Shown: positions 11,902 to 30,236, counted from the first letter of the stretch. The stretch is DNA of 30,763 nucleotides from a virus (IMGVR_UViG_3300028558_000081:1-30763), one strand, 5' to 3'. Program-made: numbers and translations. The notes: a model not told the origin generated them from the sequence alone.

Positions 11902-13632
11902 CTACTGTGTGTCGTCCCATCCTGCGGCAAACACTCGAACCGTACCGCCGACCGTCGCCATATAGATGTTCGACGTTTCGATAATGATCGACCCTGATCC
12001 GGATTGGCTCGTGATGAGCAACGGCGGCGGCGCCGTGAGACTGCCTGCGGCATAGACATTGTTCGGCGCAATGCTTGCGGTCGACGTCGTGCTCAAGGTG
12101 CCGGAGAGATAGATCGTCGCAGCCGTGACCGGCACAAACGCGGATATCGACTTCGCGACATACGTCGAACTTGTCGTGTTGCCAATTTCCGGCAGTTGCG
12201 TCGTGACGACCGACGATACGATGTATTGAGACCGCAATCCGTATTTGATGATGCGGTTAAAATGGCTTGATCCATCGGTCAAATTCCAGCCGACACGAGC
12301 CTTGAACGTATAGCCGCTCGGCATCGTCGGCGCTGTCGCGCTTGTGGAAAAAAGCCCGGCAGTCGTGCTCGTGGTCGGATTGTAGATAACCCATACCGAA
12401 TACCAGGTTGAATTTGCGACCGACCCGGTATCAAGACCGTTTGCGCCGGACGCCGTCACGTCAATAGTCGGAATGGCCACCGACGAAAGTCTTGCGGCAC
12501 CGCCTGACGAATCTTCGACGGTCAACTCATCAGCCGCCACGCTCATTTGTGAATTCGGCACTGATGGTGCGCTGTCGCCGAAATACGTGGCGACATTGAA
12601 CACGCGCAGATTTTTTGAGCCGCCAGCAATCGGTTGTGACGTGACCTCTTGCGTAAGGCGCCACCGCGAGGCATTGGAATCATACTTGACCGTCAGCGAT
12701 CGGCCGGGGCGGATTGAGATAGGCCGGTCAAAACCAAAACGATTTGCCGCGGTCGAATTGGAATCCTGCGACGTCAGGGTGCATGTCGCGGCCGACGTCA
12801 GAAGGCTATCGATCACGATGATCTGGCCGTCCGTCGCCGGGGATGACATGCCGGTGATGTTCGACGCGACGGAACAATTGAGCCTGATCACATTTGCGGT
12901 CGCAATGCCGGTCGGCGCCCAGTTGTTCGTATTGGTCGACACCGTCGCGGAAATCGGCGAGTCGAAAAAGACGCCGCCGGTAAAGACGGCAGAGAACGAA
13001 ATTGATGTGCCGTCGGCGCGCGTCCATGCAACGGCTTTCCAGTTGCTGCCGCCGAGATAAACGAATAGCGCAGCATCCCCGGCCTGTGCGGTGATTGAAG
13101 CGGCACCGGGAAGGATCAAGCTCGTGCCGTTGTAAGTCACGATCGGTGTCGAGACGAACGATACGAACTTCATCGTTCCTGCAACGCACGTATTCGAGAA
13201 CCCCGTGATCGTGGTCGTGCCGGTGATTGACACATAGCTGCCGGCAACCGAGCACAGGTCCGTCGTCGTCGCGCTTGCAAGAGTTTCCGAACCGCCGCCG
13301 ACGGGCGGCTTCCACAGATGGCCGCTGGTATCGACTGCGCCCAATGCGAGCCAATTCGCACCGTCGTAAATTTTCAGGATGTTCGGCGTGCCGCTGGTGT
13401 CGAGCCAAAGCTGGCCTTTGACCGCGACCGCAGTGCAGTCCGTCGCAGGGGCAGTTGCTCCACTATTCGACGAAATCAGCGCAGCGATGCCGGCATTGAT
13501 ATCCTGCACCAGCGTAAGGCCGGACACGGTGCCGCTGGTCGGCATGCAGCCGGAGCCTTGCGCCGCGAGGGCCGCAGACCCCCACATAAAGAATGCCGCG
13601 ACAAGAGCGACAACGGTTTTTATTTTGGTCAT
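11902..13632 (-). CDS. Exported fibre-like protein (tail fibre/adhesin family)
   Basis: The ATG at 13632 has AGAGGTGG (13638-13645) five bases upstream; a GTG at 13641 would lose this. 576 residues. A Sec signal (MTKIKTVVALVAAFFMWGSA, cleavage after ALA-A, ~24) is followed by a module at residues ~75-106 (QLWLDTS, ILKIYDGANWLALGAVD, SGH), nearly the same as in the protein encoded at 14534-16447. Beyond it the sequence is Ser/Thr/Gly-rich with alternating beta pattern, typical of fibre shafts, and ends in a compact beta region (GGTVRVFAAGWDD). Exactly six Cys, all in the first half, consistent with disulfides after export. Likely a receptor-binding or surface-exposed protein. Confidence 0.75.
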   Translation of the reverse strand: MTKIKTVVALVAAFFMWGSAALAAQGSGCMPTSGTVSGLTLVQDINAGIAALISSNSGATAPATDCTAVAVKGQLWLDTSGTPNILKIYDGANWLALGAVDTSGHLWKPPVGGGSETLASATTTDLCSVAGSYVSITGTTTITGFSNTCVAGTMKFVSFVSTPIVTYNGTSLILPGAASITAQAGDAALFVYLGGSNWKAVAWTRADGTSISFSAVFTGGVFFDSPISATVSTNTNNWAPTGIATANVIRLNCSVASNITGMSSPATDGQIIVIDSLLTSAATCTLTSQDSNSTAANRFGFDRPISIRPGRSLTVKYDSNASRWRLTQEVTSQPIAGGSKNLRVFNVATYFGDSAPSVPNSQMSVAADELTVEDSSGGAARLSSVAIPTIDVTASGANGLDTGSVANSTWYSVWVIYNPTTSTTAGLFSTSATAPTMPSGYTFKARVGWNLTDGSSHFNRIIKYGLRSQYIVSSVVTTQLPEIGNTTSSTYVAKSISAFVPVTAATIYLSGTLSTTSTASIAPNNVYAAGSLTAPPPLLITSQSGSGSIIIETSNIYMATVGGTVRVFAAGWDDTQ

Positions 13633-13643
13633 GTGTTCCACCT

Positions 13644-14537
13644 CTATGGCGTTGGATAGCTTACGACACCGATGCCGCTGCCACCGTCTCCGCCGTTGCC
13701 ACCTGCGCCGGCCGAATCGCGCGAACCGCCACCACCGCCGCCGGTATTAGGAGTGCCCGCCGTAGCGTTTGAATTGCCGGTTGATCCTGCGCCGCCGCCG
13801 CCTGATCCGCCGGTGCCGGCCGTGACGCCACCGCCACCACCACCGCCGCCGCCGTAGGTCTGGCTTGACCCGCTGATGCTCGAGGTGCAGCCGGGCCCTC
13901 CGTTGCCGCCGACATTGCTGGTCGTAGCGTCTTGCCCCACCCCACCGCAACCGCCGCCACCGCCGCCTTCGGTCTGCGTTGCGGTATTGCCTAGGCCGCC
14001 GTTATTGCCTTGCCCGACCGTCCCGGTGCCACCTGCATGCGATCCGCCGGCCGAACTGCCGCCGCCGCCAGAACCGCCGTTCGCGCCAGTTGGGTTGGAC
14101 TGCGAACCACCGCCACCGCCGCCCTTGGCCGCCAGTGAATTGAACGTGGTGTCGGTGCCGTTGCTACCTTTGTTCGCTTCATTCGTCGATCCGGAACCGC
14201 CGGGGCCAACGACAACCGGGTATGTGCCGTGCACAAGCGCGATAGTGCCCTGTAGAACGCCGCCGCCGCTTCCGCCGCCTGCAGCTCGACGGCCGCCGCC
14301 AGCGGCCCCGCCGACCAAGAGATAGTTGAGCGTCGGCTGGTCTGTCGTGCAAACGAGAGAATCGTTCGTCGTGAAGGTGTGGATCGTATTGCCGCCGACC
14401 CGCGTGATTGTACCGCCGGTACATTCGACGCGCGCGACTGCAACGCCGCCAGGTCCGGGAAAAGGTATCGACTGCGATCCGACCGACCCGATAAATGCGC
14501 CGAGGACCGCGAGCGAAAGTAGGAGGCGCTTGATCAC
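13644..14537 (-). CDS. Exported glycine-rich adhesin candidate
   Basis: 297 residues starting at GTG 14537 in GTGA overlap with the preceding gene. Signal peptide MIKRLLLSLAVLGAFIGSVG (cleavage ~21), then a small beta domain (GGTITRVGGNTIHTFTTND) with two Cys, and from ~75 to the end a run of glycine tracts (GGGGGG, GGSGGGG) spaced by short polar turns. This is the composition of polyglycine-II sandwich domains, seen in phage adhesins such as S16 gp38, where the Gly helices carry variable loops that bind the receptor. The tracts are separated by changing NT/ST/AG loops as expected for that fold. It may be the receptor-binding tip; the fold is inferred. Confidence 0.75.
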   Translation of the reverse strand: MIKRLLLSLAVLGAFIGSVGSQSIPFPGPGGVAVARVECTGGTITRVGGNTIHTFTTNDSLVCTTDQPTLNYLLVGGAAGGGRRAAGGGSGGGVLQGTIALVHGTYPVVVGPGGSGSTNEANKGSNGTDTTFNSLAAKGGGGGGSQSNPTGANGGSGGGGSSAGGSHAGGTGTVGQGNNGGLGNTATQTEGGGGGGCGGVGQDATTSNVGGNGGPGCTSSISGSSQTYGGGGGGGGGVTAGTGGSGGGGAGSTGNSNATAGTPNTGGGGGGSRDSAGAGGNGGDGGSGIGVVSYPTP

Positions 14538-16447
14538 CGCACCACCCGCCAGTTTATAGTGATCGCGCCGGGGGTGACCGTGGACGTGGTGTTGTTGCAG
14601 ACCTTGAAATTCACGGTGTCAGCCGTCGGATAGGCGATGATGGTGAGCATGCCTGTGGTCAGAGGCACGTAGCCGGTCACTCCGGTCGGATCGCCGTTAA
14701 ACGAAGCACTCACGGCGTCCGTCGTAAGCGTGCCGGTAGCCGTCGCGGTCTGCGCCGACGTGCACGCCGCCGACGATATGGAGCTGGTTGCAAGAGCCTT
14801 TGACCCGCTCGCAACCGTGTAGGTAACAGTGCCACCGGTGCCGAACGCGACCGAGCTGCTGTCGGTCCCGGTGAAAGTGAGAGTGTTGCTGAACGTCGCG
14901 GTCTTGCTTGCGCCGATGGCAAGCGTACCGGTCCCGGCCGTCCATGAATTGCCGTTGTAGGTTTTATTGGTGAAGGCCTCCGATCCCGCGAGCGTGGCGA
15001 GCGTTCCCGTCGTCGGCAATGTGACGTTGGTCACCCCCGTGGTGGTCAGCGTCAAGGAATTCGCACCGGAGGTAATAAACGCCGCAGCGGTGGTCAGGTT
15101 GCCCGCAAGGCTGATGGTTCGAGCCGCATCGTTCAACGTGACGGTCAGCGTTCTGCCCGCAGTCAACGTCTCGGTATTGGCGATCGTCATGTCGAACGCC
15201 GCGCCGGTCGAACGAATTCCGAGAGACGTAATCGCCGTATGCGTTCCGCCCGCGATCGTCGGCGTATTGATCGCCGGCGACGTGAGGGTTTTTGCGGTCA
15301 ACGTCTGCGTCGCACCTAACGTGACGACGGTGTCCGACGTATTCGGGAAGGCAAAGCTTGTGCTGTCGGTTCCGGTGAAGGTCAGGGAATTCGACGCCGC
15401 CAAAGTCTTGCCGTTGGTAATGGTCAGCGTGCCGGTCGAATTCGTGACAGTCAGGCCGTTGATCGACTTGTTCGTCAGGGCCTCGGAACCGGCCAAAGTC
15501 GCCAGCGTGCCGGTTGTTGGCAGGGTGACGTTCGTCGATCCGGTCGTCGTCAGAGTGAGAGGGTTTGCGCCGGACGTGATGAGGGCTCCGGCCGTCGTTA
15601 AATTTCCTGCGAGACTGAGCGTGCGCGCCGCGTCGTTAAGCGTGATCGTGAGCGTGCGTCCGGATGTCAGAACCTCGGTGCTGGCCAAGGTCAGATCAAA
15701 CGCCGCACCTGTTGACCTGATACCGAGGCCTGTCAAAGCAGATGCGGAACCACCGGTAATAACCGGCGCCGTAAGGGACGGCGCGGTCTGGAGGACCATC
15801 GCACCCGACCCCGTATCGGTGAGGGGAGAGTGGCCGAAGGCCTGGTAGTTCGTGCCATCTGAGACGATCCGAACACCACGGCCTTGCTTCACAACCAGCG
15901 TCGATGCACCGTTGATGGTCGATATCGTCGGCGTAATCGTGACCGTTCCGACCCCTTCATTGAAAAGGTCAGCCCACCACCCTGATGCAAAAGCCGCCGC
16001 AGTCCCGGCGCGCGGCAGCGTGTAGGCGGTCGAACCAGCGTTGCTCGCCGTAATCAACTGGCCGCGGTTGGTGTCCGCGATTGTGTACGTCGTGCCGGTC
16101 TGGGCACTGACGGTCTGGTTTGTTGAGATCGAAAACGTGTGGCCGGAGATATCCAGCGCGCCAATCGCTACCCACTGAGCGGTGTCGTAAATCCGCAGAA
16201 TTCGCGGCGACGTGCTGGTATCGAGCCAGAATTGATAATTACAGGCCGTCGCGCCTGCACAAACCGCCGGAGGCGTTGCGCCGAAATAGTTAGTCGCAAC
16301 CGAGGCAAAAGCGCTGTTGAGAAAAGACGCCAGCCCCGTCATGGTCAGAGGCGAAACGGGGGTTACCAGCGTGGATTGGTCGGCGCGGGCCGGTAAGGCC
16401 GTCAAGCCGAGGATAGCGAGAACCGCGAGCCGCCGAGCGATTTTCAT
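14534..16447 (-). CDS. Exported tail fibre-like protein with duplicated beta module
   Basis: The start is ATG 16447, which overlaps the upstream TGA as TGATG; a TTG at 16450 is less likely. 637 residues. Sec signal MKIARRLAVLAILGLTALPA, cleavage after RA-D (~22). Residues ~74-103 (QFWLDTS, ILRIYDTAQWVAIGALDISG) share the module of the protein encoded at 11902. The central part has two tandem copies of an 88-residue segment (see repeats) with LTNK-type junctions and TFTGTDS strands, typical of triple-stranded beta fibre shafts. The C-terminus is a small beta domain. Four Cys, two in a CAGATAC pair. Directly follows the tail-tip gene, the normal place for a fibre. Confidence 0.8.
   Translation of the reverse strand: MKIARRLAVLAILGLTALPARADQSTLVTPVSPLTMTGLASFLNSAFASVATNYFGATPPAVCAGATACNYQFWLDTSTSPRILRIYDTAQWVAIGALDISGHTFSISTNQTVSAQTGTTYTIADTNRGQLITASNAGSTAYTLPRAGTAAAFASGWWADLFNEGVGTVTITPTISTINGASTLVVKQGRGVRIVSDGTNYQAFGHSPLTDTGSGAMVLQTAPSLTAPVITGGSASALTGLGIRSTGAAFDLTLASTEVLTSGRTLTITLNDAARTLSLAGNLTTAGALITSGANPLTLTTTGSTNVTLPTTGTLATLAGSEALTNKSINGLTVTNSTGTLTITNGKTLAASNSLTFTGTDSTSFAFPNTSDTVVTLGATQTLTAKTLTSPAINTPTIAGGTHTAITSLGIRSTGAAFDMTIANTETLTAGRTLTVTLNDAARTISLAGNLTTAAAFITSGANSLTLTTTGVTNVTLPTTGTLATLAGSEAFTNKTYNGNSWTAGTGTLAIGASKTATFSNTLTFTGTDSSSVAFGTGGTVTYTVASGSKALATSSISSAACTSAQTATATGTLTTDAVSASFNGDPTGVTGYVPLTTGMLTIIAYPTADTVNFKVCNNTTSTVTPGAITINWRVVR
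14963..15226 (-). repeat. Fibre repeat copy B (88 residues)
   Basis: Encodes SLGIRSTGAAFDM...SEAFTNK. By hand count 75 of 88 residues are identical to copy A at 15467-15730 and the length is the same, while third codon positions differ often. The similarity continues more weakly beyond both copies (…LTFTGTDS…). Confidence 0.9.
15467..15730 (-). repeat. Fibre repeat copy A (88 residues)
   Basis: Encodes GLGIRSTGAAFDL...SEALTNK; partner of 14963-15226, 504 bases apart start to start. Synonymous divergence with protein conservation points to an old duplication kept by selection or by the fold. Confidence 0.9.
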
Positions 16448-19400
16448 CAATAGCCCTCGACTTGCATGTTCACGTCGCTGACCGCAGTCGGCGTTCCCGT
16501 CGCCGTCTCGAAATGGAACTGGATAGTCGCCAGCGTCAGGCTGTCGATGACAGGGTGTAGCCCCGGCTGGTTAATCAATGAAAAATTGACGAACGGCAGC
16601 GGTTGGTTTGTCACCGAGCTGCCGAGCGGCACGCCGCCGTTAAACGGCGCGTCAATCGAGGCGTCGTCCGGGATGAAGGTGACCGTTATGCCCTCAGACG
16701 GGACATCCAGGTTCTGGTAGTGGTCGATCCTTGGAGGGACGGAAACCTCATAGGAAAACGTCAGGACGGTGCAGATCGTCTGGCCGTCGATGGTGGTCAG
16801 CACCAGCCGGAACTTGACCAGCCGACCGCGGTAAACGCCGGGGACAAAGTCCTGCCACTCGGACCACGGGATGCCGTAGCCGTAAAGGTCCGGGCTAACG
16901 GCATAGAGATCGCCAGCCGCATAGAGATCGCCCTCATCCGCACTCTGTGCGATAGCGATCTGGAGAACGGCATTGACGTATTGAGTGGATGCCGAACCCA
17001 AAATATCCGGCGCGTTCAAAAAGTCCGTAATGGTTAGAACGTCCTGCCCGACAGGAACGCCGGCGACGCTCCAGCTTGCATTGACGTTGAGGTCCGCGAC
17101 ATAGCCAGCGTCAACGTAATCCTGCGGCCGGATTTCATAGGTGCCGCTCGAAATCACGCCGCCGTAATTGAGAATATCCGACGTGCCGAGGAAGTCGGCG
17201 ACGTCAAGAATATTTCCGCCACCGCCTAGCCTGATGTTGGTGCCATCGCGAGCAACGCCGTTTGAATAGATGCCGGGCCACCCTGCGGCTCTTTGGTCCG
17301 ACTGATGCACGAGATTTTGCACCAGCATATTCCCGGCAATCGTGACCGATACGGGATCTTCGCTGTAAACGAAAAGCGTAGGCACGGGCTGGGCATACGC
17401 AACGATCCAGTAAGTCCCCGCGCCGAATGCGATGAAAGGCGCATGGGCTTGGTCCGCGACAACCTCGGCGCCGGCGTAAGTTGCGCCGCGAAGGACTTTG
17501 TAGCGGATGGCGGTGCGGAAGTCGGATACGTCGTCCCACCATATTTTCTGGAAACCGGCCTCAAAGACCGTGCGGGCGTTCTGCACAATCGGCAACGGTG
17601 AAGTCAGCGCAACGCCGGTTATCGTGTAGGGATAGGCGGGGACATCGGCAATCTGTTCCGTTCCACCACCCCAGATATTGAACGAGCAGAACTTGATGTA
17701 AATCGTCGCGCCGACCCGGCTCTGGTCATACGGGATTTGAATGACGCCTTGATCCAGCCGCGCAAAGCGCGTCCCGGCAGGATGTGCGGCAATTGCTGAT
17801 TCCGTGCCGTAAATGCCGCGCGCCAGATAGCCGAGATTGTAATTGTTCGGGCTCGTGAGTGTGGCGTCTCGATAAGCCAGCAATTCATCGCCAACCCGGC
17901 AAATCGTATTGAACGCCAGAACGTCGGAAAGAGAACCACCAATCAACGCGCCGTCGCATTCCGACAGATCGACCGACAGTGTGCTGGTCTGGTCGATGGT
18001 TACGCCTGTCGGATTGACAGGGAATGTCGGCAACTGCGCCGTCAGCGTGCCGGTTCTTGCGGCACCAAGGATGCGACCGACGGCCTGATAAGTCTCGTTG
18101 TCGTAAGAGGCATAGACGTTCGCGCCACCCCACAAAGTCGGATCGCTTCCTGAAACCGCAGCATCCACAAACAGGCCGCCGGCAAGCTGGTCGGTCGGCT
18201 CGAAAATAATCGGCGCATTGATCGAACCTGGAGCGACGTTGTAATCAGGAACGTATCCGGTTGAAGCCTGCTTGCCATAAAGCGGGGCCGCTCCGCTGCC
18301 GCCGAGATATTCCTCTGCTGTAATCGCAAGAGAGAGATCGTCATTTTCCTGAATTTCGGTAATGCGAACCCACTTTCGCGACAGACCTTGCGATGGTCTG
18401 GTCAGCGTAATGATGTCCATGGGATCAAGCCGGACAAATCTCGGTGGCAGTTGAAACTGATACGTCGTTCCGATCTGCAACCTGCCGAGTTCGAGCGACG
18501 CCGACATTTGGGCAGCATCAGCAAGAGCAAACATATGCCGTTGCTCTTGAACGGCAGGACGTTCACCGAACAAAATAATTGAGGCATCGTCCTTGGCGTC
18601 GATCGCCACCGGATTATAACTATTCGACCTGTCGAGATATTCGACGCTCACCCAATTCGGCCGGTCCTGCTGGGCAGACCGAACGATTTTAATCGGCGGA
18701 TCAGAACTACCGCTTGGCAAAAGAGCATCATCATCAATATCGTATTCCGGCGCCGAGGGCGCGACATAGACCGCGCCGTTTGCCGTAATGTCTTGATCAC
18801 CTCTCGGCACGACGTTGAGAACGCCGCCCGACATGACGGCTTCGCTATTGGTCGCGGCGAGAAGGTCAGAGACAAATCGCGATGCTTCCTGCTGGTCGGT
18901 CAGGATTGGAGAAACGACCATGCCGGTCGCTCGAGCATAACTCGAATAGACGTCAAGCGTGCCCAATCGACCCGCCGGATAGCCCGCACCATAATGCGAG
19001 TTCGTCAAACCGTCGATCATCACGTCACGAGGGTCAGCATCTGGCGAGCCTGCGATTGCATCGCAAATCGCGAACTTGATCTCGTAGCTGAGGTTCGGGA
19101 TTTCCTGACTGTCGCCGAGGTCCATTGGCCCGGCGCCGACATACGCAAGACCGCGAAAATTATAAGCCGACCCGGGATGAAGGCTGGAGAGATAGCCCCA
19201 TGCCGTCTGAGCATAGGTGCCAAGGAATGCGGTCAGGTTCAACGCGCCGAGAGATGTCTCGCTCTTGTTATTCCAGACCGACAGAATTCCGGTTACCGGC
19301 CCTTCACAGATCGCACCGGCAAATGCGACCTGATAGGTGTAGCTGATGTTGCCGGCCGAACCTTTGCCTCCGCCGCCGCCTCCGGCACCTTTGCCACCAC

Positions 19401-19584
19401 CGCCTGACGAATCGCTATGCGCGATTGCGACGAAGTCGCCGTACCAGATCAGGTTAGCGGCTAAACGACCCTGTCCCCAACCGACCGGAATTGCCTTGCC
19501 TTGGATAGACGTCTGGATGCGCAACGCCGTCGCCGGAGGCGTCGGGTTGGAGGTAGTTCCGCGTTGCCCGAAAAAGCTCGCCAT
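16447..19584 (-). CDS. Tail-tip/host-specificity protein (GTA gp15-like, J-like)
   Basis: 1045 residues, the largest gene. The N-terminus (IPVGWGQGRLAANLIWYGDF) and the Gly-rich loop (GGGGKGAGGGGGGKG, ~62-76) followed by YTYQVAFAGAICEGP is the start of the large alphaproteobacterial tail-tip proteins. A central part (SRFVSDLLAATNSEAVMSGG, RPNWVSVEYLDRSNSYNP) corresponds to the Phage-tail_3/TIM-like region, and the C-terminal third is beta-rich with fibronectin-like strands. It would form the tip of a siphovirus tail and contact the receptor or fibres. Last of the four tail-tip genes in the GTA order; its stop overlaps the first fibre gene. Confidence 0.85.
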   Translation of the reverse strand: MASFFGQRGTTSNPTPPATALRIQTSIQGKAIPVGWGQGRLAANLIWYGDFVAIAHSDSSGGGGKGAGGGGGGKGSAGNISYTYQVAFAGAICEGPVTGILSVWNNKSETSLGALNLTAFLGTYAQTAWGYLSSLHPGSAYNFRGLAYVGAGPMDLGDSQEIPNLSYEIKFAICDAIAGSPDADPRDVMIDGLTNSHYGAGYPAGRLGTLDVYSSYARATGMVVSPILTDQQEASRFVSDLLAATNSEAVMSGGVLNVVPRGDQDITANGAVYVAPSAPEYDIDDDALLPSGSSDPPIKIVRSAQQDRPNWVSVEYLDRSNSYNPVAIDAKDDASIILFGERPAVQEQRHMFALADAAQMSASLELGRLQIGTTYQFQLPPRFVRLDPMDIITLTRPSQGLSRKWVRITEIQENDDLSLAITAEEYLGGSGAAPLYGKQASTGYVPDYNVAPGSINAPIIFEPTDQLAGGLFVDAAVSGSDPTLWGGANVYASYDNETYQAVGRILGAARTGTLTAQLPTFPVNPTGVTIDQTSTLSVDLSECDGALIGGSLSDVLAFNTICRVGDELLAYRDATLTSPNNYNLGYLARGIYGTESAIAAHPAGTRFARLDQGVIQIPYDQSRVGATIYIKFCSFNIWGGGTEQIADVPAYPYTITGVALTSPLPIVQNARTVFEAGFQKIWWDDVSDFRTAIRYKVLRGATYAGAEVVADQAHAPFIAFGAGTYWIVAYAQPVPTLFVYSEDPVSVTIAGNMLVQNLVHQSDQRAAGWPGIYSNGVARDGTNIRLGGGGNILDVADFLGTSDILNYGGVISSGTYEIRPQDYVDAGYVADLNVNASWSVAGVPVGQDVLTITDFLNAPDILGSASTQYVNAVLQIAIAQSADEGDLYAAGDLYAVSPDLYGYGIPWSEWQDFVPGVYRGRLVKFRLVLTTIDGQTICTVLTFSYEVSVPPRIDHYQNLDVPSEGITVTFIPDDASIDAPFNGGVPLGSSVTNQPLPFVNFSLINQPGLHPVIDSLTLATIQFHFETATGTPTAVSDVNMQVEGY

Positions 19585-19596
19585 ATCAGTCGCGGC

Positions 19597-21573: not shown

Positions 21574-23742
21574 TCACCACTTCGGTCGCGTTGAACGGTT
21601 GCGCCCTTGATAATTGGTCACTGCCACAGCAAGTGCTGGCGCGTTGGTCTTTATGAAATCTGCAACGCCTGCCGCATCGATTGCGTGAATGTGGATTGGC
21701 GACCCGCCACCAACCTTGGCACCGTCACGAATTGCCTGCGCTGGACCTGCCGGCACGATCATTTCGTCCTTGTGAATTTGGGCATACATCGTTGACGGGA
21801 CCTGCCATGCCCCGGTCTCGAATTTTGGCACGGCGGCAAGTTGCGCCAGCACAGTTGCTTCTCCCGCAGCGGCAGGACCGGCAGCAGCCGGGCCAAGGAA
21901 TGGTGCCAGGTTTGCGAAGATGCCGGCGAACGCCAGCGCCGCATCGGCGGTAATGGCGCTCGTGAACGACGCAACGCGGATAGGAAGCGTCTCAGCCGCG
22001 GCAGCAGCTTCTGCGGCAGCCTTCGCACCCGTCGTGCTTTGCGTCGCAAAAAGCTGCGCCGCCTGCCCGGCGAGCCATTGGAACACCATCTTTTCGATGG
22101 CCTGAATGAAATAGATCACCATGTCACCGATGATCGACCGGAATGCTTGCGTAAATGTGGTCGTGCCAGCAAGCAAGCCGCGAAGCTGGCCATTGAACGA
22201 CGACTGCAACGAACCGAAAACCTCGTCCCATTTCGATTTCATCGACAGCAAAGACTGGGCATTGAGGTTGACCATCTCGGTGCTGAATTTCGCAGTAGCG
22301 GCAACCATCTTCTGGTTTTCGGCTTCCCACTCTTTCGAGTGAGCGGGCCAGAGATCGCGGATTTTCTGCAGCGTTGCGCGTTCTTGCTCGAACTCCGCCT
22401 CGGTCGCAGCCATCGTCGATGCAAATTTCTGGTCGTCCGACGTTTTCCATAAACCCGCATCAAGGTCGTACAGGATTTTCTTTTTCGCCAAGGTCTGTTG
22501 CAGCAGCGATAGCTCAGTTTCGTATCGCGCCCTCTGTGCTTCAAGAGAAGCTCTCGCGCCTTCGTTTATCGCCGCGGCATTCTGACCGCCGCCGCCGCCG
22601 TGGTCGTCGCCATGTGACGCACCGCCGGAAATGGCGTCAGACAATTCCTTCATCATCGCCTTGACGCGGGCGACAAGTTCGGTCTGCTTTTCCGTGAGAT
22701 TTCGTCCAGCTTTCTCAGCGCCGGTATTGAAACTCGCGATGAATGCGTCCCATGCCGCCACGATACCGCCACCAATGATGGCACCCCCAGCCGCGCCGCC
22801 AGGTCCGCCCAAAGCACCAAGCGCACCACCAATCGCAGCACCGGCAAGCACGCGCTTGAATTTCGTGGCGATGTCGTCAAGGCTTGCGCCGAGTTCATCG
22901 AATAGACCGATGAGACCGATGATTGCATTGCCGAGCGTTTCGATCAGCGCCTTCGCAAAGTCCTGAATGGTCTTTGTGTCGAGCGACTGAATCCACTTCG
23001 TCATGCTGGTGACAATGAGATCGATCGCAGGCTTGAGCACGGTAAAAATTCTAGCCCCGAGGCTCTGGGCGCTGAGGCTCAAGAATTCCAGTTTGTTGTG
23101 CGTATCCGCCATTCCCGGGATGGCAGCGGCCAGACCTTCCTGTGACTGACGCACCGCGTCCTGCATTTGCTTGAAGCCTTCGGCCCCGAGCCGAAGCGCC
23201 GGGATCATCTGCTGCACACCGCGACCACCGAGGATCATCAGCGCGTTGGTCAGATTGAGGCTGGGGTTGAACTTTGAAACCGCATCAGCCAACTTGCTGA
23301 AATACTCATCGGCCGGAATGCCGATCAGGTCCTTCGCATTAAGACCGAGGACCTTCAACGCCTGCGCTTGCGGGCCAAGAGCATCGGCCGTCGATCTCTG
23401 CACACCAAGCGACATGCGCTCGATCGCAAGAGACATTCCTTCGATCGACGAACCTGTGAGTTTTGCGACGCCGGAAAGATTGACCACGGCATCTGCCGAA
23501 AGGCCAAGCCTGGCCATCATGATCTCGGTCTGCTCACCGAGTTCGGCCATCGTCTCGACAAATTGCTTCATCGCCTCGACTGAGAACGCGATGCCGATTA
23601 TCTCGCCGAGTTTTTTGAAACTCTCGCCAGCGGTTTCGACGCTGCCTTTGATGCTCTCGATATGAGATTTCGATTCATCGACCGCCGCAATGAGCTGGTC
23701 GATCTTTGCGCCGATAGTCAGTTCGACGTCATTGTCGGCCAT
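21574..23742 (-). CDS. Tail tape measure protein
   Basis: 722 residues, mostly helical: coiled-coil N-terminus (KIDQLIAAVDESKSHIESIK), long amphipathic regions, and a Gly/Ala-rich hydrophobic segment (GGALGALGGPGGAAGGAIIG) of the kind that inserts in the host membrane. The C-terminal third again is Ala-rich with apolar stretches. Position between the tail chaperones and the distal tail protein fits. By the usual ~0.15 nm per residue, a tail of about 110 nm is implied; this is an estimate. Confidence 0.9.
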   Translation of the reverse strand: MADNDVELTIGAKIDQLIAAVDESKSHIESIKGSVETAGESFKKLGEIIGIAFSVEAMKQFVETMAELGEQTEIMMARLGLSADAVVNLSGVAKLTGSSIEGMSLAIERMSLGVQRSTADALGPQAQALKVLGLNAKDLIGIPADEYFSKLADAVSKFNPSLNLTNALMILGGRGVQQMIPALRLGAEGFKQMQDAVRQSQEGLAAAIPGMADTHNKLEFLSLSAQSLGARIFTVLKPAIDLIVTSMTKWIQSLDTKTIQDFAKALIETLGNAIIGLIGLFDELGASLDDIATKFKRVLAGAAIGGALGALGGPGGAAGGAIIGGGIVAAWDAFIASFNTGAEKAGRNLTEKQTELVARVKAMMKELSDAISGGASHGDDHGGGGGQNAAAINEGARASLEAQRARYETELSLLQQTLAKKKILYDLDAGLWKTSDDQKFASTMAATEAEFEQERATLQKIRDLWPAHSKEWEAENQKMVAATAKFSTEMVNLNAQSLLSMKSKWDEVFGSLQSSFNGQLRGLLAGTTTFTQAFRSIIGDMVIYFIQAIEKMVFQWLAGQAAQLFATQSTTGAKAAAEAAAAAETLPIRVASFTSAITADAALAFAGIFANLAPFLGPAAAGPAAAGEATVLAQLAAVPKFETGAWQVPSTMYAQIHKDEMIVPAGPAQAIRDGAKVGGGSPIHIHAIDAAGVADFIKTNAPALAVAVTNYQGRNRSTRPKW

Positions 23743-23745
23743 GAC

Positions 23746-24317
23746 CTATTGCCTCCCCAGTCCGGGGATTGTCCCGCCAGTAGCGCGCATCAGCGCCATC
23801 GCTTCCTCAGCGTTAAGGTGCTTGGACTTGTCTGCGACGGGATCGGACGGCTTGAAGCCGACAAACCCGGCGACAAGCTGGCGGATCGGCGGGAAGCGAC
23901 GCCAGTGTGCGAACAATCGCTGGACGTCGAACAGTGTCATGGCGCCGATCTCGCGGGGCGTATAGCCGCAATCGGTTTGCAGCAGCCCGTAGATTTCCTC
24001 GAAGTAATTTCCGTCCAGAGGGCGGCTTACGCCGCCTGCGGAGGGTTTTCGCTGGTCTTGACCACCCCCGCGCCGCCCATGACGGCATTGATCGCCGTGG
24101 TGACCTCGTCCATCGATGCGCGCACCGGGCCGGTCGGCTTCGGCTCCATGTCCTCGATGATGATCTTGAACATGCCGAATGCGACCTTGGCACTCGCGGC
24201 CGGATTTGCGGGATCGACGTCGGCCTGAGATTCTGCCAACCGCTCGAGTTGGTCCAGCGTGAGAGTGGGGACCTTGTAGGTCTCGCCGTCGAGGACGATT
24301 TCAGTGTGTCGCGCCAT
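23746..24317 (-). CDS. Tail assembly chaperone G-T (made by -1 frameshift)
   Basis: The frame that ends at TAG 23746-23748 is open well upstream of its first ATG and encodes DGNYFEEIYGLLQTDCGYTP, then REIGAMTLFDVQRLFAHWRR, a typical T-domain of alphaproteobacterial tail chaperones. It joins the G frame through the slip site at 24042-24048: join(24317..24042, 24042..23746), predicted 190 residues. The T part recruits the tape measure/tail tube during tail assembly in known G/GT systems. A separate protein from the internal ATG at 23940 is less likely because it would cut the conserved segment. Confidence 0.85.
24021..24048 (-). promoter_or_regulatory. Programmed -1 ribosomal frameshift site
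   Basis: On the minus strand: heptamer A-AAC-CCT (24048-24042) in the right phase for X-XXY-YYZ, then a 5-base spacer, then the hairpin GGCGGC-GTAA-GCCGCC (24036-24021) with a GNRA loop. The zero-frame stop TAA lies in that loop. All three parts of a classical signal are present. Confidence 0.88.
24027..24317 (-). CDS. Tail assembly chaperone G
   Basis: 96 residues; N-terminal beta part (HTEIVLDGETYKVPTLTLDQ) and helical remainder (FGMFKIIIEDMEP). It lies between the major tail protein and the tape measure, the canonical place of the G gene. Its ATG is separated from the previous stop by 1 base. The zero-frame stop is placed inside the frameshift hairpin. G alone is expected to be the more abundant product, G-T the minor one. 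Confidence 0.85.
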   Translation of the reverse strand: MARHTEIVLDGETYKVPTLTLDQLERLAESQADVDPANPAASAKVAFGMFKIIIEDMEPKPTGPVRASMDEVTTAINAVMGGAGVVKTSENPPQAA

Positions 24318-24318
24318 A

Positions 24319-25083
24319 TTACGAAATCTCCGGATAGGTCATGTCGAAGACCCGGTTACTCGAATCCGCAAAGAAGCTGAAATCGAATTCCGGGATCATG
24401 AAGTCTTCGAGCTTGAACGGCATCGACAGTTTGTCTGCGATGCACTGATAGACGCGGACTACGAACGGCTTGGCCGTCGGCTGATTGAGGCTCGTGTAAT
24501 AGTCGAGTTGGAACGTCGGCGTGTAGCCGATCGGCTTGTTGATGACGTTGAGGGTCTCGCCGGTCGCCGTGGTCGAGCGGTAGGTGACCTTGATGCCGAC
24601 GCTCTCATCCGCATCCGCGAAATAGTACAGGCCGGTTGCCGTGGCCGCGTACTGGCCGACGGTCAATGCCGAGACATTGGCCGTGCTAACCCGCTGCATC
24701 GGTAGGCCCTTGGTCGAATAGGTCACGCCGAGGTCGGATTCAAACGTCGCGGTTGACCCGACTTGCACGGTCGGGTTTGTGCTGCCCGGGATCGAATAGG
24801 TGGAATCGACGCTCCATGCCGCGCCGCCAGTCGAGAAGTTGTTCCCGAAAAAGCAGGCATTCCACGCAATGCCGGAAATTTCGGCGGACTTGAATTTGCC
24901 GGTGGCTTTGATGGTGGACCGAGCTGCGACCAGCGGATATTGGTTCTGCCCGTAGAGCATCTTGGTCGTGCCGGCCGCGTCGAGCGAGAATTCCTGCGCG
25001 TAACCGACGTTGATCGCAAGCGGGGTGGTGAGATCGGTGCGCGTAAGGATCAGGATGCCGGGGCCGAAGGCTGCAAAGGCCAT
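24319..25083 (-). CDS. Major tail tube protein
   Basis: 254 residues, beta-rich (QEFSLDAAGTTKMLYGQNQY, STIKATGKFKSAEISG, FQLDYYTSLNQPTAKPFVVR), no signal peptide or membrane part. The length and the position directly before the G chaperone are those of siphovirus tail tube proteins. The C-terminal segment (MPFKLEDFMIPEFDFSFFAD) matches the end of tail tube proteins that carry a strand-rich tail. It starts 60 bases after the upstream gene; that gap shows nothing else. Confidence 0.8.
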   Translation of the reverse strand: MAFAAFGPGILILTRTDLTTPLAINVGYAQEFSLDAAGTTKMLYGQNQYPLVAARSTIKATGKFKSAEISGIAWNACFFGNNFSTGGAAWSVDSTYSIPGSTNPTVQVGSTATFESDLGVTYSTKGLPMQRVSTANVSALTVGQYAATATGLYYFADADESVGIKVTYRSTTATGETLNVINKPIGYTPTFQLDYYTSLNQPTAKPFVVRVYQCIADKLSMPFKLEDFMIPEFDFSFFADSSNRVFDMTYPEIS

Positions 25084-25143
25084 GACGCGATCTCCATCAA
25101 AGGGCGGCCGGCGCCGTCTCGGCGCTGGAGTTGCCGGGTTATA

Positions 25144-25704
25144 TCATGCAGAGTTTGGATAAAGCATTACCGATATCGGTATCCCAACCATCCCCAGACC
25201 TGTCGGGTCGATGTCAGGGGTGATGTAGAGAATATCGCCCTCCACCCAGCAATGGCTTACCAGCCCGGTCGGATAGGCCGCCTTGTTGTCCGGCGTCGAA
25301 AGGGTGCAGGCATTCTGCGACGCGCTGTCGTTGGCGAAGCCGTCGTTTAGGATTGTCTCCACAAGGTCGTTGAACGGGGTCGAACCTGGCCCCGGCTCCG
25401 ACGACGGGCCGCCCGGCGTTCCTGTGCCGGGGTATTCCGCATAGATCACTATGGTGCGCTTCATCGTGATAACCGACGGCGACGCCCGGCCACGCGGTTC
25501 GACCTTGTCAACCCCGCCGCCTAACCCGACGCCGTCATATAAAAACAGGGCCGGAAGACTTATCGGGGAATCCCCCTGCTGCCGGCTCGCCAGCATCTGT
25601 TCCCACGTCCAGAAACGACGGCTGTAATACTTAAAGCTATCCCCGCATGCGTCCTTTAGCCGAGCGAGTAACGTGTCCATGACGGTATCGCGAAATGAGG
25701 TCAT
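25144..25704 (-). CDS. Tail terminator-like protein
   Basis: 186 residues: N-terminal helices (RDTVMDTLLARLKDACG), beta strands and a Pro/Gly-rich loop (PGTGTPGGPSSEPGPGST), then FNDLVETILNDGFAN and a final strand pair (IDPTGLGMVGIPISVML). The fold order (helix, strand, loop, helix, strand) and location between gp10-like and tail tube genes fit the tail terminator/tail-completion family. No direct motif. ATGA overlap with the preceding gene. Confidence 0.65.
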   Translation of the reverse strand: MTSFRDTVMDTLLARLKDACGDSFKYYSRRFWTWEQMLASRQQGDSPISLPALFLYDGVGLGGGVDKVEPRGRASPSVITMKRTIVIYAEYPGTGTPGGPSSEPGPGSTPFNDLVETILNDGFANDSASQNACTLSTPDNKAAYPTGLVSHCWVEGDILYITPDIDPTGLGMVGIPISVMLYPNSA

Positions 25705-26189
25705 GCCGCTTTCGCCCCATTCTGCGCCGCTTTTTGCAAGGCGTTGACAATCTCGCTCTGCATTTCGTCCAGCGACCGCTGCATGTAGTTGATGCCGGCA
25801 AATCCCGGATGATGCACGGCCTTAAAGGCCGCATTGATGCCGAGTTTTTCCCAAAAGAAAAACAGCGCGGAACCGGGCTTGGCTTCGATCAAATGCGCCT
25901 TGGCGCCGGTATCGAGCACGGCCGGAACCATGTTCGACTTTTGATCGCCGGTCCAGACTACTCGAACCCGTCCGTAAAGATAGGTCGGGCTTTCGACCAT
26001 TTCCTTTTTGACGTCGATATTCTTGCGGCTTTTGAGTTCGCTGTTGAGCTTGGCCTCAACCGACGCGCCGAGGCGCTTCGTCAAATCGGGGATCACGGTA
26101 CGAAGATTGCGCCGGATGCCTTCCGGTATTCCGGCATCGGAGAATTTCAGCAGGGCCTTTCGGGCGTCGACTTGGATCTCAGGGATCAT
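25701..26189 (-). CDS. HK97 gp10-like head-tail joining protein
   Basis: 162 residues: helix-rich start (GIPEGIRRNLRTVIPDLTKR), a central beta part (PTYLYGRVRVVWTGDQ, LDTGAKAHLIEAKPG) and a C-terminal helix pair (NYMQRSLDEMQSEIVNALQK). The ‘LDTGAKAH.IE….AL’ segment is typical of gp10-like minor tail/head-tail proteins. Located between the connector and the terminator candidate, as in HK97-type cassettes. ATGA overlaps at both ends. Confidence 0.75.
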   Translation of the reverse strand: MIPEIQVDARKALLKFSDAGIPEGIRRNLRTVIPDLTKRLGASVEAKLNSELKSRKNIDVKKEMVESPTYLYGRVRVVWTGDQKSNMVPAVLDTGAKAHLIEAKPGSALFFFWEKLGINAAFKAVHHPGFAGINYMQRSLDEMQSEIVNALQKAAQNGAKAA

Positions 26190-27004
26190 GACCCGCTCCC
26201 GGTCGGGCCGCCATCGATGTAGACCGGCGGCGCACTCCCTGACGGGTTAAGCAAATTGTCGTCCATGCCGATGATGAAACTCGGCTGGACGCGGTCGGTA
26301 TCGTTCTGCTGTGCCACCTTATCCGCGATGCTGATGCCGCCCATGTACGGCATCGTGCCGCCGCGCGCCATGCCGCGGTTCTCCAATTCCTTGGCCCGCA
26401 GTGTGTAGGCGATGGCCTGCTGGCTGTAGTTGGTTTGCAGACCGCTGGCGCCCTGCACGGTGTTGACCTTGCGGCTGTACTGCGCTGCTATCTCCCGACA
26501 GCACTCCGCCGCAGCAAGATAAACGTTCGAGTAAAGACTGATCGCAAAGCGGATTTCTTCATCCTGCAACTGCTGATCAGAGGCCAGCACGTCGCCCACG
26601 AGACGGCGAACCTGGTAAAGCGTGTTAGTTCGCAACGCGGTGCTGTCGTAGGTCCACGTCGGTGCGAGGCCGACCTGCATTCGGCCGACCGAGACGGTGG
26701 TCGGGTTGCCGTCACCGTCCGTGACCGTGGCCTGATGAATGTAGGAACCGCTTAGACTAGCGGTGTCCGTCGCAAGGATGGCGACCTGAAATTTGCCATC
26801 GGTGCCGTCCGTGACGAACGTAATGCCGCCACCGGTCTTGGTCTTTGAAATGACCGGCACATCAAGGTCATCGCGGATCGCGGACCATGCAATCTCGGTC
26901 GACCCCGAAATATCGATGGCTACGCCGGCGCTGTTCTTCACCGTGAAAATCGGCGAGACGGCGTTGCCTTGATAGGTGACGAAATCCTGATTGATTGATG
27001 CCAT
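26186..27004 (-). CDS. Fusion of Ig-like domain and head-tail connector
   Basis: The ATG at 27004 (AGG 7 bases upstream) is used; a longer reading runs into the upstream stop at 27028. 272 residues. Residues 1-115 are an immunoglobulin-like beta sandwich (YQGNAVSPIFTVKNSAGVAI, FQVAILATDTASLSGSYIHQ) like the N-terminal domain of BppU-type baseplate proteins. Residues ~125-200 (LYQVRRLVGDVLASDQQLQD, EEIRFAISLYSNVYLAAAEC) are the helix pattern of gp6-like head-tail connectors. A connector with an Ig domain in front is uncommon; the Ig part may decorate the neck. The C-terminus is Gly/Pro-rich. Confidence 0.75.
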   Translation of the reverse strand: MASINQDFVTYQGNAVSPIFTVKNSAGVAIDISGSTEIAWSAIRDDLDVPVISKTKTGGGITFVTDGTDGKFQVAILATDTASLSGSYIHQATVTDGDGNPTTVSVGRMQVGLAPTWTYDSTALRTNTLYQVRRLVGDVLASDQQLQDEEIRFAISLYSNVYLAAAECCREIAAQYSRKVNTVQGASGLQTNYSQQAIAYTLRAKELENRGMARGGTMPYMGGISIADKVAQQNDTDRVQPSFIIGMDDNLLNPSGSAPPVYIDGGPTGSGS

Positions 27005-27027
27005 CGCAGACCTATAGCACGGGCAGG

Positions 27028-28998
27028 TTACCCGCCGCTGCCGACCCCGAGCGTCGGCAGACCGCCGCCCCCAAGCCCGTAAAACCGCCAACCGCTATTG
27101 CCGCCACCGCTCGTCGAATGGTTTCCGGCAAACCACAGGGCCCCCCCGGTCGCGGTGCTGTCCGTGATCGACAGATAGTCGCTTGACACATAGCCGCTCG
27201 ATTTGGATAGCGTCGCGGGTGTGCCAGGTGACGAAGAAGTCAGGCTGATCTTGTGGCTTGCATCGGCTCCGGACGCCGTAAAACTCGATACCGTCTGCGT
27301 CGTGCTCGCCGGGAACTGGACCGTCCGCGCCGTGGTGCCGTCAATCTTGAAGTCGTTGAAGGTGTTTGCGCCTGTGATGATGAGGGTGCCGGTAGAGGCT
27401 GGGTTGTAAAAGTTCAGTTTGTAGTACGATACGGTGTTGCTCCCGGAGAAACTCGCCGTTCCGGAGATTATGCCCGCATACCTAATCTCAATGGTCCCGC
27501 TGACCGTGAAACCAGCATAGTTCGGAGCCCAAGGCGAGCCGGAGGTTCGCCACATGTTCCAGACGCCGCTGCCGGAAATCCCGTGCGACACGTTTCCGTT
27601 GGCTCGGAGGATGTCCAAGTTTACTATATTGCCGCCGTCGGCAAAAGTGCCTAATTGCACATCCAACCCACTCGTGCCGGAATTGCCGAAGGTGTCTTGC
27701 GCGGTATATGAGCCGCCGAAGGCGTTGATCACTAAAATACCCGGAAATCCTTTACCAGCACAGGTTATCGTCTGAGCTCCTCTTCCCTGAGCGTTGACAG
27801 GCTGAACGCCCGACGCGGTCATCCCGCTGCCAAACTTCCAGTTTCCGTAGAACGCGCTTCCGTTGCCGTCAGATGAGACAAAATTGAAACTCAGCGTCTT
27901 CAGGTATTGCGAGGCGTCTATGTTTCTACCCATCCTAGGAACGTCGATCCCTAGCGTGGTGGCCGTCGATGAACTGCCGAGGCTCACGTCATCCTGCGGC
28001 AGCGGCACGCGGTTCGTCGTTCCGGCCCATGTCGCGGTCGACCAGTTGATCGTGCCGGTCGAGGCGAGCGTCAGCGAGACAGACGGGTCGAACGTGATGC
28101 CGGAATTGCCGAGCGCATCCCCGAAGCTCGTCCCGGTCCATGTGCCGAAGGTGCCGGCCGAGGCGATGTCCTGGAAGTCGACGTTGGTCAGCGAGACGGT
28201 CGCGCCAGAGGGGACGGAGATGGTGCGCTGTGTGCCGAGCGCATTCGATTTCACGAATGCGCGGTTGACCGTCGAGTTACCAGAAATAGTGAGCGATCCG
28301 GCGGCAGCAATCGTGATATTCGAGCTTAGCGAATAGCTGTCAGTTTTGTTGGTCGTGCTGGTGTAGCTGAATGAACTTGCGGTCAGCGCACCACCTGCGG
28401 TCCATAGGCCAGCGCCAGTCGTGCTGATCGTGCCATAGGTCAAAGCCCCGAACGTCTGTGTGAGCGAAGTGCCAGCGCCCCCACCTGTAAAATTGATCGT
28501 GCTGCTGGCCGCTGTGAACGTCAGCGTCCCCGCCGTGCTCACATTCCACGGCGTCCCGCTCGTCCCCGTGATATTGATCGTGCTGCCAGTCAGCGTCAGC
28601 GTGCGCGTGCCGGAGGTGGAGGTCAGGCTCGTGAAGCTGTGCGTATTTGCGCCGGTAACGAATGTCCCGGCCGTCACCGTCACGGTGCCGAACGTCACAC
28701 CGCCGCTGAAAGCGGTAGTGATGTTGGCTGCGCCGAAGGCCAAGGCGCTCGTAGCCGCCGTCGATGCAATCGTGACCGTGCCGGTTCCGCTGTTTGCGTC
28801 AAAAGTTGCAGTGTCGGACGATGTTGGAGGTCCTGCTCCTGGCGTGCCACCCGACGACGTTGCCCAGTTGGTCGTAAGAACGTTGTTCCACGTCCCGGTG
28901 CCGACGCCGGCAATCGCAACCCAAAAATAGCTTGCGGCAAAGCTCTGGCACGACAGAGATATCAGTAGCAGGAATGCGATGACAGCGCGGCGGATCAT
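27028..28998 (-). CDS. Exported autotransporter-passenger-like beta-repeat protein
   Basis: 656 residues; ATG 28998 overlaps the preceding stop as ATGA. Signal peptide MIRRAVIAFLLLISLSCQSF (cleavage after SFA-A, ~22). The mature N-terminus (SYFWVAIAGVGTGTWNNVLT, TNWATSSGG, SSDTATFD) matches the start of autotransporter-associated beta-strand repeats (W….G.W….NW….D.A.F). The rest is Ser/Thr/Gly-rich parallel-beta-helix-like sequence. There is no C-terminal beta-barrel: the protein ends in GLGGGGLPTLGVGSGG. It stands in the head-tail part of the operon rather than next to the fibres. Function unknown; an exported passenger domain or a capsid/neck fibre are the two main possibilities. Confidence 0.75.
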   Translation of the reverse strand: MIRRAVIAFLLLISLSCQSFAASYFWVAIAGVGTGTWNNVLTTNWATSSGGTPGAGPPTSSDTATFDANSGTGTVTIASTAATSALAFGAANITTAFSGGVTFGTVTVTAGTFVTGANTHSFTSLTSTSGTRTLTLTGSTINITGTSGTPWNVSTAGTLTFTAASSTINFTGGGAGTSLTQTFGALTYGTISTTGAGLWTAGGALTASSFSYTSTTNKTDSYSLSSNITIAAAGSLTISGNSTVNRAFVKSNALGTQRTISVPSGATVSLTNVDFQDIASAGTFGTWTGTSFGDALGNSGITFDPSVSLTLASTGTINWSTATWAGTTNRVPLPQDDVSLGSSSTATTLGIDVPRMGRNIDASQYLKTLSFNFVSSDGNGSAFYGNWKFGSGMTASGVQPVNAQGRGAQTITCAGKGFPGILVINAFGGSYTAQDTFGNSGTSGLDVQLGTFADGGNIVNLDILRANGNVSHGISGSGVWNMWRTSGSPWAPNYAGFTVSGTIEIRYAGIISGTASFSGSNTVSYYKLNFYNPASTGTLIITGANTFNDFKIDGTTARTVQFPASTTQTVSSFTASGADASHKISLTSSSPGTPATLSKSSGYVSSDYLSITDSTATGGALWFAGNHSTSGGGNSGWRFYGLGGGGLPTLGVGSGG

Positions 28999-30236
28999 TT
29001 GTAGCTGGCCTCGATATAGACGCCGGTCGCAGCATTAGTGTTATCGGTGTCGCCACCGCCGCCCGTTACGCAAAACCCGATACCGTTCGCGTAAGCCTCA
29101 CCCAGCGGCAAAGACCGCTGCAATCCGGCACCGTTTGAACTGGCGCTGCTCGGGATCGGATAGACGTGCTTGATGTTCGTCGCGCTTGAGCATGTCGGCG
29201 CTGCTGCGCTGTCATAGACCTTGAGATAGTAGGTCACCGCCGTCGTATTGAGCACCGTCAGGTCACACAGCGTGCCGGCCGCGCTGGCCTTGATCGAGTT
29301 CGAGTTGGTCGATGCGCCCGTACCGCCTGACAGGTGGTAGGGCGTGCAGCCGCCCGTAGTCGCGGCGACCGGCGTCACGGTGCCGCCCGAGGATTGCATC
29401 GGCGTCCCTAGCGCCGTGATCAGCGACGTGACGCGCTGCGCGATACGCTGCAACAGCGCATTGAGCGAGCAGGATGCGGTGTCGGTCGAGCACGCCGTCG
29501 CTCCGGGAGCGCCGAGGTTCGTGTTCGTGGTGCCGACCGAGGTATCGAGCGCCAGCGCCGATGTGTTGAGGTTGGTGCCGGCGTTCGCAGTGACCGACCC
29601 GCCGGTCTGCTGCATCGGGGAGCCGAGCGCCGTAATGATCGACGTGAGCCTCTGGGCAAGCCGCTGGATCAATGCGTTAAGGGAACACGACCCCGTGTCC
29701 GTGGCGCAAGCGGTAGCACCTGGGGGACCGAGGTCTGTGTTTGTCGTCGCAACTGTCGTGTCCTGCGCTGCGCCGGCCGGCAATGGCAACGAGGCTGCAC
29801 TGATCGGTTGCGTCGCCTGCCAAAATGTTCCTGAAACCGGAATAGCGCCTTGGTTGCTGGCGATGACGACCGGCAGTGAGTTTGCCATTGTCGCTTGGCC
29901 ATAAGTCAACTGCGTCAGGATGGCCGCCAGCGTGGTTTGTGTGGCCGCTCCTGTGGGCAGAGGCCATGAAGCTGCGGAAACCGGCTGTGTGGCCTGCCAG
30001 AACGTCCCGGTGACCGGCTGCGCGGAGGGGAATGCCACGTAAAACGGATTGCCCGAGACGCCAAAAGCCGCTCCGGTCGTATCCTGCGGCGTCATGCCAG
30101 GGCATATTTTCCCCGAGCACGTAAAGGCCTTGATGGTCTGCGATGCCCCGTTGCCGTCCTTGATGACGTAGTCGGCGCGCGCCGGCCCGGCGATCGACAA
30201 TGCCAAGGCAACGGCAAGCCATAGTTTTCTGGTCAT
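28995..30236 (-). CDS. Exported repeat-containing virion-type protein with paired cysteines
   Basis: 413 residues from ATG 30236 (TGATG overlap with the upstream stop; a GTG at 30239 is possible). Signal peptide MTRKLWLAVALALSIAGPAR, cleavage after ARA-D (~22). Then a segment with the widespread phage motif LPVVIASNQGAIPVSG, two copies of a ~28-residue P..GTFWQATQP.SAAS.PLP.GAA block, two copies of a 52-residue block with a C-x6-C pair, and a ~110-residue C-terminal beta domain with four Cys (YYLKVYDSAAAPTC, YANGIGFCVTGG). All ten Cys are in pairs or in this domain. The C-terminal domain recurs in phage proteins without assigned function. Confidence 0.75.
   Translation of the reverse strand: MTRKLWLAVALALSIAGPARADYVIKDGNGASQTIKAFTCSGKICPGMTPQDTTGAAFGVSGNPFYVAFPSAQPVTGTFWQATQPVSAASWPLPTGAATQTTLAAILTQLTYGQATMANSLPVVIASNQGAIPVSGTFWQATQPISAASLPLPAGAAQDTTVATTNTDLGPPGATACATDTGSCSLNALIQRLAQRLTSIITALGSPMQQTGGSVTANAGTNLNTSALALDTSVGTTNTNLGAPGATACSTDTASCSLNALLQRIAQRVTSLITALGTPMQSSGGTVTPVAATTGGCTPYHLSGGTGASTNSNSIKASAAGTLCDLTVLNTTAVTYYLKVYDSAAAPTCSSATNIKHVYPIPSSASSNGAGLQRSLPLGEAYANGIGFCVTGGGGDTDNTNAATGVYIEASYK
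29373..29528 (-). repeat. 52-residue repeat, copy 2 (C-terminal)
   Basis: TNTNLGAPGATACSTDTASC...GGTVT. By hand count 40 of 52 residues are identical to 29589-29744, with synonymous differences throughout; both carry Cys pairs six residues apart. Confidence 0.88.
29589..29744 (-). repeat. 52-residue repeat, copy 1 (N-terminal)
   Basis: TNTDLGPPGATACATDTGSC...GGSVT, partner of 29373-29528. Confidence 0.88.
29757..29840 (-). repeat. 28-residue block, copy 2
   Basis: Encodes P.SGTFWQATQPISAASLPL and following residues; related to 29934-30016 (FWQATQP.SAAS.PLP.GAA). Tandem arrangement with the 52-residue blocks downstream. Confidence 0.75.
29934..30016 (-). repeat. 28-residue block, copy 1
   Basis: Encodes PVTGTFWQATQPVSAASWPL and following residues; partner of 29757-29840. 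Confidence 0.75.

Follow-up and report, generated by a model that had tools for sequence, protein, structure and literature searches.

The stretch of DNA analyzed here (the window), 30,763 bases long, is a single linear IMG/VR record from a soil-type bacterial virus. On its minus strand, the order of transcription is two small ORFs, S5, S4, connector genes, tail tube, tape measure, Dit-like genes, NlpC, hub, S3, S2, S1, endolysin, and lysis genes. S1-S5, all encoded on this strand, are five products proposed in the first-pass annotation to begin with signal peptides, and their frames and starts (13632, 14537 (GTG), 16447, 28998, and 30236) are as given there. The features considered are:

28995..30236, minus strand: S5, 413 residues, with a predicted signal peptide, PVSGTFWQATQPV repeats, and 10 mature cysteines, preceding the head-tail connector genes (signal peptide rule, repeats)
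27028..28998, minus strand: S4, fiber-like protein of 656 residues with a predicted signal peptide; cytosolic relatives begin M-ADRYWV at the predicted cleavage site (signal peptide rule, alignment with relatives)
16447..19584, minus strand: tail hub/tip protein (GTA host-specificity/J-like), 1045 residues, no signal peptide, used as the synteny anchor (Pfam PF13550 and PF23666; phrog_1101 tail protein; PDB 6tba GTA protein)
14534..16447, minus strand: S3, tail fiber of 637 residues with a predicted signal peptide (1-22), N-domain (about 23-104), repeats, and C-terminal tip domain (about 508-637) (signal peptide rule, N-domain family, tip model)
13644..14537, minus strand: S2, Gly-rich protein of 297 residues with a predicted signal peptide and mature N-terminus QSIPFPGPG, a candidate tip adhesin paired with S3 (signal peptide rule; Gly_rich_2, PF21722, E 4e-16; signal peptide-PGPG motif in relatives)
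11902..13632, minus strand: S1, tail fiber of 576 residues with a predicted signal peptide, mature N-domain QGSGCMPTSGTVSGL, and 6 cysteines (signal peptide rule, N-domain family; phrog_17105, E 1e-27)
10964..11920, minus strand: endolysin, no signal peptide, immediately after the fibers (phrog_181 endolysin; PF01471)
9970..10365, minus strand: lipoprotein-like ORF (LLAPAITAC) of 131 residues in the lysis region, the sole rule-positive gene of the window besides S1-S5 (signal peptide rule)

S1-S5 are genes of the operon and not single inserted genes, since the starts of S2, S3, S4, and S5 overlap the stop of the preceding gene and S1 has the ribosome site GAGGTGG. Among annotated records, the one nearest to S1, S3, and the C-terminus of the hub is the Bradyrhizobium phage ppBdUSDA122-1, which makes an alphaproteobacterial host likely. 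Proteins with signal peptides are common in bacteria and many of the contigs compared are metagenomic, as would be expected if bacterial adhesin genes had been misassigned to phages or if the contigs were assembly chimeras; we regard this, however, as the least credible of the alternatives, because the genes are tightly packed with those of hub, NlpC, Dit, and endolysin, several with starts overlapping the preceding stop, the same order recurs in many contigs and in a phage record bounded at both ends by tRNA, and the S3 tip pattern was found at one bacterial locus, in a Bryobacterales MAG, among 84,980 species genomes.

N-termini were assessed by a rule requiring a basic n-region, a charge-free hydrophobic core, an A-x-A-like site, and no long transmembrane segment, which recovers 22 of 27 known E. 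coli signal peptides and, in phage lambda, the exported Lom and Bor together with the membrane-anchored Rz and RexB. All five products pass it, as proposed earlier, with predicted signal peptides MTKIKTVVALVAAFFMWGSAALA (S1, before AQG), MIKRLLLSLAVLGAFIGSVGS (S2, before QSI), MKIARRLAVLAILGLTALPARA (S3, before DQS), MIRRAVIAFLLLISLSCQSFA (S4, before ASY), and MTRKLWLAVALALSIAGPARA (S5, before DYV), the S2 site (VGS before Q) not being a strict A-x-A. Hub, NlpC, Dit, tape measure, tube, and connectors of the window are negative, in agreement with the earlier statement that the neighboring virion proteins do not carry such N-termini. When N-termini were shuffled, 0-4% of trials passed the rule. 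Among proteins of at least 200 residues, about 5 of 15 pass in the window versus 2 of 123 in six control phages (Fisher p 1.4e-4), and around hub homologs picked regardless of signal peptides, positives comprise 19 of 116 downstream genes, 3 of 182 upstream genes, and 0 of 64 hubs (p 3e-6).

Two further ORFs of the window appear signal peptide-like by eye. The product of 6501-7184 (minus strand), outside the tail operon, contains 6 cysteines, shows a weak match, below cut-off, to M15 D-Ala-D-Ala carboxypeptidase (PF13539), and is possibly an exported peptidoglycan enzyme. The other, of 129 residues (5994-6383, plus strand; leader MLKLALVAALIVIGTPVLAG), is encoded on the other strand, beside a ParB-like gene, and has no Pfam match.

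S1 and S3 belong to a tail-fiber family encoded directly after the tail hub, with profile matches in both. Its N-domain comprises 81 residues (PTTGTVSGL...NSGASAP...GQxWxDTS...YDGxxW); cytosolic members begin with M-SQxSLxLPTTGTVSGL, and the signal peptide of exported members ends exactly at the position of that methionine. Mature S1 would be AQGSGCMPTSGTVSGL, its predicted cleavage site coinciding with the start of the cytosolic form, M-SQGSLVLPTTGTVSGL, with which genes adjoining hub homologs in other contigs begin, without a signal peptide. A wider scan and profile search yielded 72 different N-domains in 49 contigs, 52 of them with an export-like leader ending at the domain start and 20 starting there. 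Thirty contigs contain exported members only, 17 cytosolic members only, and 2 both, so that 30 of the 32 contigs in which the exported form occurs yielded no cytosolic one, most contigs being possibly incomplete. The leader sequences diverge, with the n-h-c layout kept. Relatives without the hydrophobic N-terminus, which had been named as a finding that would speak against export, do exist, but they support modular addition of a signal peptide rather than refute export. Among exported relatives, the signal peptide, whose conservation was suggested earlier as a check, is conserved in character, and 49 of the 50 genes of the S3-tip family with an intact 5' end carry one (corrected starts counted).

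A gene of the N-domain family directly follows the tail hub in the window and in contigs L136, L244, L214, L246, L364, and L386. In L361 and L364 (about 1-5 kb), the genes preceding the same exported fiber family are a lambda J-like hub and a lambda I-like one; by this gene order, the family is not tied to a single hub family. Contig L246 (13100-17600) encodes one cytosolic and two exported fibers of the family consecutively. The N-domain fold shows weak likeness to trimerization domains (Z 3.4), and the N-domain tree requires four changes between exported and cytosolic states, two of which are forced by well-supported branches.

The hydrophobic N-terminus could instead be an uncleaved structural part of the virion that attaches the fiber to the tail, helps trimers form, or inserts into the membrane during infection, and fiber N-termini do usually bind the tail. 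Such a part, however, would hardly vary in sequence while keeping the layout of a signal peptide, be dispensable in cytosolic relatives, end exactly at the domain start, and exist in twin-arginine-like versions, and the cysteine parity described below demands an oxidizing compartment; we therefore consider this explanation very improbable.

S4 shows the same exact join as S1 in an unrelated fiber family: A22, the first residue past the predicted cleavage of a signal peptide spanning residues 1-21, corresponds in the alignment to residue 2 of five cytosolic relatives, which start with MADRYWVGGTGTW or similar. For S5, most of the first 80 matches listed are generic GTFWQATQPV repeats, 10 of 65 carry a signal peptide, and no cytosolic counterpart was found among the signal peptide-bearing N-terminal relatives (L071, L073, and L178). 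In L073, the S5 relative (8303-10039) lies downstream of a terminase-like gene and is followed by a protein of 874 residues with a twin-arginine-like leader (10971-13595); by their surroundings, the exported proteins of this contig look as if they sit in the head region. S5 itself contains two repeats with identical cysteine spacing (Cys177/184, GSCSLNAL; Cys249/256, ASCSLNAL).

The last 110 residues of S3 match more than 100 viral contigs. The model of this tip (pLDDT 88.8) gives VIA Z 7.1 to KP32gp38 and 6.5 to both LKA1 gp49 and phi297 gp61, with no PDB match at E < 0.001; against predicted viral protein models, E reaches 6e-5 and many predicted phage proteins are similar. PDB sequence searches with S1, S3, and S4 returned no match. 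The predicted fold of the S3 tip thus resembles the C-terminal, H-type-lectin-like fold of the tailspikes KP32gp38, phi297 gp61, LKA1 gp49, and Pam1 (VIA Z 6-7; Foldseek top ranks, with E not significant), from which the S3-tip family differs by a conserved cysteine pair and a signal peptide on nearly every member; these tailspikes are not known to have signal peptides. The S3 tip was also found in 4 of 297 genomes sampled from the phylum of the Bryobacterales MAG, two of the matches being strong. In that MAG (L138) and in L324, both Acidobacteriota genomes, it occurs together with a PGPG protein, and signal peptide-bearing proteins reach 1424 residues; on thin evidence, the hosts of this branch may include Acidobacteriota, as a separate host branch for the S3-tip fiber type.

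The gene after the S3-tip gene usually encodes another signal peptide-bearing protein, whose mature end is Q followed by FPGPG, WPGPG, or GPGPG (QSIPFPGPG in S2). At least 11 of the 13 PGPG proteins called negative by the rule have a leader by eye, 3 of them with twin-arginine-like motifs. Such motifs occur on fibers or PGPG proteins in L214 (6873, pectate-lyase-like), L008, L034, L178, L200, and L073; the Tat profile TIGR01409 (NCBIfam) is below cut-off or absent on these leaders, the assignment being one by motif alone. This mix of Sec-like and apparently Tat-like leaders is consistent with selection for export irrespective of the pathway. Among isolated phages, no relative of S2 was found. 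In T4, gp38 is a Gly-rich partner encoded after the fiber gene, and the S3-S2 gene order and the Gly-rich domain of S2 recall such gp37/gp38-type pairs of fiber and tip adhesin in order and domain only; S2 differs by its signal peptide and PGPG mature N-terminus, whereas T4 fibers are made in the cytoplasm without a signal peptide. S2 is a candidate tip adhesin partner of the S3 fiber.

Signal peptide-bearing proteins of the S3-tip contigs match tail-fiber, collar, virion-structure, LamG, Gly-rich, and GTA head-spike families (Collar, GTA_spike_fiber). Some carry pectate-lyase, arabinofuranosidase, cellulase, esterase, or LamG domains, and could be secreted in free form, as enzymes or lectins (depolymerases, glycan-binding proteins), to open the capsule or matrix round the cell before or after lysis. 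Such a role is improbable for the class, as most members show only fiber or tip domains and both the gene position and the N-domain are of tail-fiber type.

Cysteines set exported and cytosolic proteins apart. The mature products contain 6 (S1), 4 (S2), 4 (S3), 1 (S4), and 10 (S5), so that the even number reported earlier for four of the five holds, S4 with its single cysteine being the one without. Exported N-domains carry two cysteines in 42 of 52 cases, one in 2, and none in 8 (10 of 52 are thus without a pair), while 19 of 20 cytosolic N-domains have none (Fisher p 3e-9); the pair sits at different positions in different subgroups. The cytosolic exception is L363, whose leader may be frameshifted, and L373, a cytosolic member within an exported clade, has neither cysteine. 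Over whole mature proteins, the ratio of even to odd counts is 48:4 in exported members (p 1e-10) versus 8:10 in cytosolic ones, and 46:4 in exported members outside the N-domain. Among proteins of at least 200 residues in S3-tip contigs, it is 154:21 with a signal peptide and 181:199 without (p 3e-21). In Gram-negative bacteria, exported proteins are known to favor even cysteine numbers (PMC7678975). Taken alone, the link between N-domain cysteines and signal peptides rests on few independent events, since the tree needs only four changes of the signal peptide, two of them forced; an independent-pairs test had no power, with too few switches on the tree.

Export, with disulfide formation, is very probable on these data, because signal peptides are placed exactly at the start of otherwise cytosolic families, their character is kept while their sequences diverge, Sec-like and Tat-like leaders occur on the same type of protein, and cysteine counts are even. 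By position, N-domain, tip fold, and family matches, the proteins look like tail fibers; S1-S3, and probably S4 and S5, would be receptor-binding fibers, lectins, or spikes.

Tailed-phage fibers are normally made and assembled in the cytoplasm. Virion proteins with cleavable signal peptides are known in filamentous phages (the coat proteins pIII and pVIII), which S1-S5 resemble as virion-type proteins with predicted signal peptides; filamentous particles, however, assemble at the membrane, whereas the window, with its tail and endolysin genes, comes from a tailed dsDNA phage. Also close are the tail fiber WAX24263 of ppBdUSDA122-1 and its neighbor WAX24264, two N-domain fibers which share with S1 and S3 the N-domain, a hydrophobic export-like N-terminus, the cysteine pair, and the post-hub place; they differ in their C-terminal parts and are annotated just as a tail fiber and a hypothetical protein. 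The host strain of this phage, Bradyrhizobium diazoefficiens USDA 122, spontaneously releases siphovirus particles, as seen by TEM (PMC10127595).

The main rival to a place in the virion is that the exported proteins act outside the particle, for example by masking receptors: fiber-derived lectins would cover receptors in the envelope or in released debris so that progeny are not lost (superinfection exclusion or anti-readsorption, as with lambda Lom-type genes beside J). Lom is a late protein with a described signal peptide (PMC12309495), whose gene immediately follows J, the tail tip gene, and precedes those of the tail fibers, and thus sets a positional precedent for S1-S3; export itself is well supported, and the large hub could act as the adsorption protein. 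Lom, however, is a small beta-barrel protein destined for the outer membrane of the host, whereas S1-S3 are large fiber-domain proteins that replace tail fibers. With masking, the virion would be left without these fibers, as no cytosolic N-domain fiber remains in 30 of the 32 contigs; the fiber N-domain is preserved intact, and several large, different fibers per phage (up to 2516 residues) would be costly as masks. We consider masking unlikely, although less so than the other alternatives.

Taken as a whole, the observations are probably best explained by exported, periplasm-matured receptor-binding fibers, lectins, or spikes, and the fibers are probably part of the virion. Of the two roles inferred in the first-pass annotation, fibers with a membrane-involving assembly step thus fit better, and exported products acting in superinfection, adhesion, or matrix fit less, given the position, N-domain, tip fold, family matches, and missing cytosolic members.

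We lean, by a small margin, towards fibers that undergo export and periplasmic oxidation and become attached to tails when the cell lyses. This order of events is favored by the position, the N-domain, the tip, and the replacement of the cytosolic version, and by ppBdUSDA122-1, whose leader-bearing fibers come from a strain with siphophage particles. S1-S3, and probably S4 and S5, would be exported from the cytoplasm of the siphovirus-infected cell mostly via Sec and, in some relatives, apparently via Tat. After cleavage of the signal peptides, the chains would fold in the periplasm and acquire intramolecular disulfides; fiber S3 and its presumed Gly-rich partner S2, with its PGPG N-terminus, would mature there. 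Once holin, endolysin, and spanin break the cell, fiberless particles made in the cytoplasm would meet the periplasmic fibers and bind them via the conserved N-domain. T4 fibers can attach late, to finished particles (PMC3004832). A point against this reading is that the hub may carry a receptor-binding part of its own, so that fiberless virions might infect.

Assembly of tailed phages is taught as cytoplasmic and complete before lysis. Our literature search, whose coverage was without most subscription journals and preprints, so that absence is not proof, found no report of tail fibers with signal peptides or of exported fibers. The fibers are of a known kind; exported, cysteine-paired fibers would be new, as would the assembly route if late joining were shown, an extracytoplasmic last step being so far unknown for tailed phages. 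Whether these fibers mark a widespread class, in which tailed phages of diderm bacteria use the secretion and disulfide machinery of the host to make receptor-binding fibers and finish their virions outside the cytoplasm at lysis, is in our estimate evenly balanced. If so, virion assembly would in part take place in the periplasm and require either Sec or Tat along with signal peptidase and probably DsbA, infectivity would depend on host redox enzymes, and the large cysteine-paired fibers of soil phages would be explained. Many receptor-binding proteins would then have been misfiled where a signal peptide was read as evidence against a virion protein, and a simple sequence rule would serve to find exported fibers.
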